Assembly: GCA_030523715.1 (NCBI GenBank)
Contig: JAUNHY010000007.1
Coordinates: 1-50,976, forward strand
Direction of reading: 5' to 3'
DNA length: 50,976 nucleotides
From: Candidatus Saccharimonadota bacterium
GTDB lineage: Bacteria > Patescibacteriota > Saccharimonadia > Saccharimonadales > Saccharimonadaceae
Both the position numbers and the translations under genes were made by a program. The notes beneath the pieces were generated by a model. It had not been told where the DNA came from. It ran no database searches and worked only from the letters and a program-made list of their open reading frames with translations. This document shows, piece by piece, positions 12,157 to 40,728 of the stretch (its first letter is position 1; each line of letters starts with the position of its first letter).

Positions 12157-12246
12157 ACTGCCAATATTTTACCATTTTACAGATAGATTGTAGAGAGTTT
12201 ATATAAAAAGATTAGGCTCGTGCTTTTTCGGTTTTTGGCTTTTGGC

Positions 12247-12258: not shown

Positions 12259-13779
12259 ATGAAAAGATTTTTGAAGTTATTATTTAGCATTTTATTCTGT
12301 TTATTGGGCGCAAATTGTTGCTTCGCGGAACTAGTGCCGATTGATGGTAGCGACAATAGTATGGATAATGGCGCGGGGGCTGGCGAATTGACGGGCTGTG
12401 CGGACATAGAGTTCATTTTTGCCCGTGGCTCGGGTGCGGAATATATGAATAGCGACATGTGGTTTAAATATGAGTCAGAAATGTCGAAATTGGCGCGCAG
12501 ATATAATTATTCTTTTCGGATAACGGATGTTGACTATCCGGCGGTTTCAATTATTGATCCAATTACGAATGCGGTCGGTGCTTACATATCGGCGGGAAAG
12601 TATTATGAGTTTGGTCGAAGTGTGCGTGCGGGTGTAGATTCGTTGCGTGATTATTATAATGAAGTGGCGCGTCAGTGCCCAGATTCGTTATGGGTCTTGG
12701 CGGGGTATTCGCAGGGGTCGATGGTGGTGGCGCAAGCGGTTACTTCTTTTCGATACGATAAGGTTGTTTATATCGCCTTATTTACGGATCCGCAATTGTA
12801 TTTGCCGGAAGGTGCGGGTTTGTTTCCAGATGCATGCAGTGGCGACAATTTATCAGAATATCGAGTATATGTGCCGGTTTGCCGCACGCATAAAGGGCGG
12901 CTAGGTGCGCGTAATCCGTATCAATATGGGGGGTTGGCTGGAAAATATGGTTTATGGTGTGGTCGCGATGATTATATTTGCGGAAGTACAAACGTGCCGT
13001 GGCTAATTTCTGGACATACGAAGTATGTCGAAAGAATCCCGCAACTTACTAGTATTTTGAAGAAACAATTGGCGCGAAATGTGGCACCGGTGGCGGTTAC
13101 GCGTAGCGTGGAAACTGGCGATGTGGTGGCATTACTGTCGCTCGACGAATACTATGCGCATCCTGGAGAAGAAATAAGATTTGATGCGTCGCATAGTTTT
13201 AGCTTGGATGCGGAGATTGTGAACTATGAGTGGAGTTTAGACAATGAAGGGTGGTGGTCTGATTCGGCCGTGATTACTTATAGTTTTGATGTGGAAGGTT
13301 ATCATAAGTTGAAACTTCGCGTGACGGACTTTTTGGGCGAAAGTGCGGAGACGCAAGCGGATGTTTGGGTAGTCGTAGATGATGTAGTGTTCTATGAACT
13401 GCCAGCACCAACGGAAGTAACGGCGCGAAGAGAAGGCGCCGAGGTGGCATTGGAGTGGGATTCGCATCCGAACTCCGCGTATTATATGTTCATAAGGATA
13501 AATGGCTATGATTTGGGCTATGTCGACGCTAGTCAAAACCACGTTAGATTGACGGACTTAGAATTTAGTGAAGAATTAGTGGTTTCCGTGGCCTGGTCGA
13601 CTGGCAAAATGAATCTGAGTGAATTTACGGATTTAGAGATCAATGCGGATGATGACTCTAGTGGAGATACGGTGGATATAGAAGCGCCGAATACTGGTAT
13701 TACATTCGCAGATGGTATATTACCGAGTTTTGCGATTATAACCTGCCTGGGGCTAGTGCGACGGATAATGTGGGCATAA
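12259..13779 (+). CDS. Secreted cutinase-family esterase with PKD and FN3-like domains and a sorting-like tail
   Basis: A 506-residue exported protein. Residues 1-23 are a signal peptide. Residues 46-280 match the cutinase family: CADIEFIFARGSG, nucleophile Ser151 in GYSQGS, Asp237/238 between two cysteines (WCGRDDYIC), and His253 in SGHTKY. A PKD domain follows (about 290-380, with FDASHS, YEWSLD and VTDFLG), then a beta-rich FN3-like segment. The tail has PNTG (477-480), a hydrophobic stretch and RR near the end, like a sortase-type signal. Cutinase-like esterases of this type are typical of mycolic-acid Actinobacteria, which include known Saccharibacteria hosts, so transfer from a host and action on host lipids are plausible inferences. 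Confidence 0.85.
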   Translation: MKRFLKLLFSILFCLLGANCCFAELVPIDGSDNSMDNGAGAGELTGCADIEFIFARGSGAEYMNSDMWFKYESEMSKLARRYNYSFRITDVDYPAVSIIDPITNAVGAYISAGKYYEFGRSVRAGVDSLRDYYNEVARQCPDSLWVLAGYSQGSMVVAQAVTSFRYDKVVYIALFTDPQLYLPEGAGLFPDACSGDNLSEYRVYVPVCRTHKGRLGARNPYQYGGLAGKYGLWCGRDDYICGSTNVPWLISGHTKYVERIPQLTSILKKQLARNVAPVAVTRSVETGDVVALLSLDEYYAHPGEEIRFDASHSFSLDAEIVNYEWSLDNEGWWSDSAVITYSFDVEGYHKLKLRVTDFLGESAETQADVWVVVDDVVFYELPAPTEVTARREGAEVALEWDSHPNSAYYMFIRINGYDLGYVDASQNHVRLTDLEFSEELVVSVAWSTGKMNLSEFTDLEINADDDSSGDTVDIEAPNTGITFADGILPSFAIITCLGLVRRIMWA

Positions 13780-39582: not shown

Positions 39583-40728
39583 TTATCTTCGGAGTGTTTT
39601 AACTTTAAAGTAGCCAATTGTGATAATTGTTCCTAGACCAAGCAATGCAATTGTGTAAGCCGTAATTCCGTCAAGGGTGGCTGGGTTGGCTTCTTCGGTC
39701 TCAGCTTCGGTGCATTCGCGGACGATTGTACCGCCGTCTTCGATAAGCAAATCTTCGTCGCCGTCATATTCGCCGCAGATGGTGAGCGTTGAACCTTCGC
39801 CGACTATAATTGCCGTATCTTCGGTAGATAAGGTGATTCCGGCTGGAACAGTGATGTTGGTATTTAGCAGTACAAGTGATTCGCCAGCGTCAATAGTCAC
39901 ATCTTCTTCAAGAGTATTATCGTAGCCACAGACGGTAGTCGTGTGATAATCTACTTCTTCCCAGTTATCGTCCCAATCGAGATCTTCGTAGATAATACCT
40001 TTTGTGCAGGTAACTTCGCCACGATCTTGGCTTTCGTCGACAAATTTGTTGCCCAAGAAGCGATAGACGCTTTCAATTACGACGTCGCCATTAATATCGA
40101 AAGTACCATCACTACTAGTCATGAAAGCGGAGTCGGCATAGATATCTTCGACATAAAGCCCTTCGGAAAAGAAATAGCCACCAGAGATAATTACTTCGCC
40201 GACGCCGTAGTTGTTAATAATGATGTTGGAAATATCGAAATAGCCATCGTTGATATAGATGTTGCCGACAACGTCTGCTAGCCCATAATCTGGGTTTGGA
40301 TCAATCGTGGCGAAAAATGCGTAAACATTTGAGCCGCCGGAAAAATTTCCATTGTTGATGGTTAAATCTCCGTCAATGACTAAGACTGGATTTTCAATAT
40401 CCGACGTGACCTCGCCGTCGCCTGTTATCATAAGGTTAGACCAGATCTGAAGCGTTGAGTTGATGGTTACGGTGTGGTCGTTTAGGTTTAATATTGTTTC
40501 GCCATTGATGTTGACGGTTTTATTTAGTGTAATATCGTCTTCTAATACAATATCGCCGCTTAATGAAATCTTATCAGTATTACTGTCGGCTAATGCTGCG
40601 ACTAGCTCCGTATAATTTGTCGCCGTTGCGCCAGCGGCACTAACATTTGTGACTGGCGCAAGCGCGCCAAAAATACAAGTCATAATTGCCACTAGTGGCA
40701 AAAATAACTTCCTCGCAGTTTTTGTCAT
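39583..40728 (-). CDS. Secreted beta-helix-like surface protein with C-terminal anchor
   Basis: A 381-residue protein: signal peptide (1-31, ending VSAAG), a long run of short beta repeats with DITLNKTVNINGETILNL, LQIWSNLMITGDG, GDLTINNGNFSGGS and GNIYINDGYFD, typical of right-handed beta-helix adhesins or pectate-lyase-like folds, then a CGEYDG strand region and a C-terminal NPATLDG followed by a membrane segment and KVKTLRR. It is acidic and has few cysteines. AAAGGAG precedes ATG. A role in host attachment or glycan binding is a reasonable guess. Confidence 0.75.
   Translation of the reverse strand: MTKTARKLFLPLVAIMTCIFGALAPVTNVSAAGATATNYTELVAALADSNTDKISLSGDIVLEDDITLNKTVNINGETILNLNDHTVTINSTLQIWSNLMITGDGEVTSDIENPVLVIDGDLTINNGNFSGGSNVYAFFATIDPNPDYGLADVVGNIYINDGYFDISNIIINNYGVGEVIISGGYFFSEGLYVEDIYADSAFMTSSDGTFDINGDVVIESVYRFLGNKFVDESQDRGEVTCTKGIIYEDLDWDDNWEEVDYHTTTVCGYDNTLEEDVTIDAGESLVLLNTNITVPAGITLSTEDTAIIVGEGSTLTICGEYDGDEDLLIEDGGTIVRECTEAETEEANPATLDGITAYTIALLGLGTIITIGYFKVKTLRR

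Follow-up and report, generated by a model that had tools for sequence, protein, structure and literature searches.

A predicted cell-surface cutinase-family esterase of Saccharibacteria and the in-frame TGA codons carried by its sister genes

The gene at 12259..13779 on the forward strand of the window (the whole stretch of DNA analysed, 50,976 nucleotides from a Candidatus Saccharimonadota bacterium) encodes a cutinase-PKD-FN3-like protein of 506 aa with a predicted secretion signal. Its product is best explained as a cell-surface serine esterase that would act on debris or on adjacent cells, the bacterial host being the likeliest of these, a reading to which we assign a probability of roughly 0.55. 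The frame appears to start at the ATG at 12259 and closes with the TAA ending at 13779. Upstream, at 12220, lies an in-frame GTG, but as the signal peptide begins at 12259 it is the less likely start. The esterase gene has no companion on its own strand; upstream, on the opposite strand, are an ABC transporter pair and MurT/GatD-like genes. A match to the Pfam family Cutinase (PF01083) is found in 39 of the 45 genomes of the window's genus, and the conservation of the gene across the genus argues against a chance open reading frame.

The first 23 residues (12259..12327) read as a signal peptide, and residues 2-22 form an N-terminal hydrophobic helix in the predicted model, which fits this assignment. 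The cutinase domain (residues 46-277, 12394..13089) matches PF01083 over residues 47-259 with an E-value of 1.9e-14 and 54.4 bits against a cut-off of 25.9. The model, with a mean pLDDT of 78, places the cutinase fold over about residues 46-272, and this part lies mostly at 75-97 per block. The predicted catalytic residues are Ser151 in the GYSQG motif (12709..12711), Asp238 between Cys234 and Cys241 (12970..12972), and His253 (13015..13017); these three, together with Cys47, Cys140, Cys193, Cys208, Cys234, and Cys241, are unchanged in 36 of 36 aligned sequences. An earlier note on this DNA had read the Ser-Asp-His pattern and the cysteines around the Asp as cutinase-like, which is borne out by the Pfam score and the invariance of these residues, and the catalytic residues whose retention it had left to be checked are lost in no relative aligned. 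Downstream lie a PKD domain (residues 299-369, 13153..13365), matched above cut-off by both PF18911 (E 3.9e-7) and PF00801, and an FN3-like region at about residues 380-463 (13396..13647). Both modules had been proposed in the earlier note: the PKD domain stands on its Pfam matches, while the FN3-like part has no Pfam match and is described here as a predicted beta-sandwich, with strands over residues 387-461 and a Foldseek match list that includes a cohesin-FN3 module.

The fold, the Ser-Asp-His residues, the cysteine pair flanking the Asp, and secretion are common to the window protein and the PF01083/CE5 family, which includes fungal cutinases, acetylxylan esterases, and the mycobacterial Culp/Rv3802c enzymes. 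To these elements the family of the window protein adds the invariant Cys193/Cys208 and an LPEG motif. It further differs in its PKD and FN3-like modules and its sortase tail, along with a VWA domain in kin. Residues 476-506 (13684..13776) form the putative sorting signal, consisting of APNTG, a hydrophobic segment, and an RR tail, so that the layout of a sortase substrate (signal peptide, xPxTG motif, hydrophobic segment, and basic tail) can be read in the sequence. The motif differs from the canonical LPXTG in its first residue, which is Ala rather than Leu. Additionally, the genome encodes four sortases above cut-off. The earlier suggestion of an exported protein with an anchor tail agrees with these features, and attachment of the esterase to the wall through the predicted tail is plausible. 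In genus g2 (L013, L014, L017, L024, L028, and others), the chain stops straight after a P[KM][AT]PNTG[RK]-like conserved motif and has neither a hydrophobic segment nor a basic tail behind it; a sortase substrate would not normally carry its LPXTG-like motif at the extreme C-terminus. Elsewhere in the window, 39583-40728 encodes an exported-looking protein with a weak, below-cut-off match to PF20585 (a pectate-lyase-like adhesive domain), a C-terminal hydrophobic tail, and RR at its end.

Beyond the genus, PF01083 was matched in 52 of 199 genomes of the family and in 12 of 380 genomes of the phylum, ten of them above cut-off and nearly all from the same order or family. Most of the named relatives are metagenome bins from animal guts, in many cases those of ruminants; Nanosyncoccus alces is also among them. 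In close pairs, dN/dS is about 0.07-0.16 over most of the gene, which indicates purifying selection. The gene is nevertheless not essential, since six of the 45 genus genomes lack it, including one (G011) rated 100% complete. In one genome of the same class and a different family (G273), the cutinase is fused to a beta-propeller-like N-terminal part (L104); this sequence clusters with actinobacterial ones and is possibly a contaminant.

In the proposed mechanism, the esterase of an animal-gut Saccharibacterium would be exported by its signal peptide, a sortase would join its APNTG tail to the wall, and the PKD and FN3-like modules would hold the esterase domain outward. The cutinase domain (Ser151-His253-Asp238) would then cleave acyl or acetyl esters exposed on debris or on adjacent cells, of which the bacterial host is the most probable, and fatty acids would be released or the host surface loosened. 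Cultivated Saccharibacteria live as parasites, and host envelope esters fit that life. The enzyme may plausibly act on the host envelope; a role specific to mycolates is no more than conceivable. Two observations bear on host relevance: the same architecture is found in a few Actinobacteria, and the title of Rose et al. 2025, as given in PMC12592800, reports that mycolic-acid pathway mutants of Gordonia amarae resist a Saccharibacteria parasite. A full-text literature search returned no paper tying cutinases to the biology of Saccharibacteria; the papers that mention both are, judged by title, reviews or surveys devoted to other topics.

The main rival to host envelope esters as the substrate is acetylated polysaccharide or dietary lipid. 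The top structural matches to the model are acetylxylan esterases, with Z-scores of 20.4-20.5 (1bs9: 20.5), and the substrate may therefore be a polysaccharide. A carbohydrate-directed CE5 esterase, or an enzyme that scavenges dietary lipid or cutin in the gut of herbivores and is not aimed at a bacterial host, would also suit the many relatives from ruminant guts, and PKD and FN3-like modules are generally known from carbohydrate-active enzymes too. However, the Z-scores for acetylxylan esterases are close to those for Rv3802c of Mycobacterium tuberculosis (5w95, 19.6) and the fungal cutinases (17-19), a Saccharibacterium from groundwater (L232), a setting poorer in plant polymers, also has a member of the family, and the VWA domain of the kin together with the sorting tail suggests a surface role. 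We regard this reading as a tentative one, which deserves some weight. The VWA domain, typical of adhesive surface proteins, lies in many relatives between the cutinase and the PKD or FN3-like parts and carries the DxTGSM metal-site motif, as would be expected if the protein were foremost an adhesin whose VWA, PKD, and FN3-like parts bind a partner cell, with the esterase secondary. This appears unlikely, as the window copy and most of its genus have no VWA, whereas the catalytic residues are invariant across the family.

A mycolate-directed esterase, analogous to TDMH or phage lysin B and gained from a mycolate-bearing actinobacterial host, would account for the presence of Rv3802c and the mycobacteriophage D29 lysin B (3hc7, Z 17.3) among the structural matches, and most of the actinobacterial plasmid homologues lie in Mycobacteriales. 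Lysin B is an alpha/beta hydrolase with the same fold as the window domain; however, it is phage-borne and, unlike the window protein, not cell-anchored. The tree of 68 cutinase domains speaks against such a gain: it nests the window row deep in a group that spans Saccharibacteria and leaves the mycobacterial, rhodococcal, gordonial, and nocardial cutinases outside. Among the matches listed, the nearest sequences of the same build from beyond Saccharibacteria come from a few Actinobacteria, chiefly Micrococcaceae (Arthrobacter and Rothia), a family without mycolic acids. In addition, the gene is widespread in Saccharibacteria and a member of an old family of that group. We therefore consider this reading very improbable, and the recent gain from a mycolate-bearing host put forward in the earlier note is not supported by the placement of the window copy. 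Of the homologues that it had named for comparison, the mycobacterial and gordonial ones lie outside the group; nearest are mostly Micrococcaceae, along with a damaged copy from Corynebacterium phocae.

The actinobacterial copies were drawn from the matches listed in one genome scan and from plasmids, and within this set at least four Actinobacteria with related multi-domain builds are placed among Saccharibacteria rows. Arthrobacter sp. zg-Y1110, from marmot gut, carries a plasmid copy (L265:4872-7307) whose frame is open throughout. Among the matches listed, three of the four actinobacterial copies are damaged: that of Arthrobacter AFG7.2 (L230) is frameshifted and bears a transposase-like insertion, that of Rothia aeria (L231) is frameshifted, and that of C. 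phocae (L249) has an internal deletion; intact actinobacterial copies may be commoner than seen. The zg-Y1110, R. aeria, and AFG7.2 proteins share a cutinase-VWA-PKD-FN3-like build, and the zg-Y1110 protein ends in a LASTG sorting tail; the window copy differs from the Arthrobacter and Rothia proteins in having no VWA and is about 30-40% identical to them. A single Saccharibacteria clade is not rejected (AU test, p 0.115). Exchange between Saccharibacteria and Actinobacteria, in either direction, is likely on this sequence evidence. An origin from phages was also considered and set aside: the window cutinase domain has no phage match, two weak matches on viral contigs group with actinobacterial sequences, and the phage row in the tree forms a long branch outside the Saccharibacteria group.

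The sister genes of the genus carry a second feature. While the window copy has 11 TGG codons and no TGA, at least one internal TGA is present in 18 of the 39 gene-bearing genomes of the genus in the codon alignment, and a 19th has one near the C-terminus. Copies with in-frame TGA in genus g1 include L067, L041, L037, L040, L043, L066, L140, and L143, among others. Save for the TGA codons, the relatives' copies are open end to end. Alignment column 85, which corresponds to window Trp68 (TGG, 12460..12462), holds TGA in 15 rows and TGG in 10; TGA is found there in 14 of 37 genus-tree rows and in all ten genomes of one clade. Both TGA and TGG are likewise seen at columns 198, 294, 549, and 629, and the remaining TGAs fall in the variable signal peptide or just downstream, where there is no conserved Trp. 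In the ten-genome clade, TGA occupies four of the five conserved Trp columns followed by A and never those followed mainly by G, T, or C. Over 20 roughly independent TGA events, A follows in 15, as against 31% after TGG (binomial p 6e-5, which is approximate, given that the events were counted by hand and share ancestry). The cutinase matches listed from other genera of the family contain no in-frame stop. One copy of the genus (L135, in G212) is split by an in-frame TAG, the sole non-TGA internal stop seen there.

We consider it somewhat probable that the UGA is read through as Trp in a gene-specific, context-dependent manner, with A mostly following the codon, in the presence of RF2 and an ordinary tRNA-Trp(CCA). 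In the sister species, a full-length product would need UGA to be decoded as an amino acid; Trp, delivered by this tRNA, is the likeliest. Among four genomes that all carry the TGA (G152, G165, G201, and G203), dN/dS is 0.04-0.13 before the codon and 0.07-0.10 after it, and the low values on both sides argue that the full-length frame is under selection. Pseudogene decay is unlikely for the TGA copies: dN/dS is about 0.07 in close pairs, the relatives' stops lie mostly in Trp columns, and although 175 of the 231 single-base routes from the window gene to a stop give TAA or TAG, the relatives' stops are, apart from one TAG, all TGA. Internal restart past the stop is also unlikely, as the signal peptide and the RGSG would be lost and several copies have more TGAs downstream, and an assembly error is unlikely since the TGA is seen in independent projects (L183-L186).

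A genome-wide reassignment (code 4) was rejected. The RF2 gene prfB is matched in all 45 genus genomes, above cut-off in 42, and the valS matches listed for the genus contain no in-frame TGA. A tRNA-Trp(CCA) is present in 40 of the 45 genomes, and no tRNA-Trp(UCA) was found in the 45 with a pattern that covered CCA and UCA in one tRNA form only. In G208 (332 kb), the cutinase gene is the only one with an internal in-frame TGA among the genes compared (99 with homologues in G109 and 33 in the window, in overlapping sets), and a scan of this genome for genes running on through TGA gave no second clear case. In G144 (400 kb), it is again the only one, over 130 target frames with 429 TGG codons. 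By eye, no conserved RNA structure is evident near the UGA in the relatives' DNA.

Within Patescibacteriota, the family JAKLIH01, which differs from the group of the window, has been reported to read UGA as Trp, and a tRNA-Trp with a 4-bp anticodon stem has been linked to this decoding (PMC13092985); in the present genus, such a special tRNA was rejected, as the stem is a 5-bp CTGGT/ACCAG. Leaky UGA readthrough in E. coli inserts mainly Trp and can be strong in some contexts; in that study, it was favoured by G, not A, after the stop (PMC11126739). The relatives' copies thus resemble code 4 bacteria, 4-bp-stem tRNA-Trp systems, and leaky E. coli UGA in the apparent use of UGA as Trp. Contrary to those systems, the genus keeps RF2 alongside an ordinary tRNA-Trp, no UCA tRNA was found, and the cutinase gene alone is affected among the genes compared. 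No description of in-frame UGA as Trp was found for these bacteria in the literature. If it occurs, readthrough perhaps couples the level of the protein to Trp supply or to host contact.

If confirmed, the sister genes would be a rare bacterial case in which one gene, unlike the others compared, uses a stop as a Trp codon at conserved sites, and automatic annotation with the standard code truncates the esterase across nearly half of the genus. Little is understood of the means by which Saccharibacteria feed on their hosts or breach them, and a conserved, probably wall-anchored esterase offers a concrete and testable candidate.
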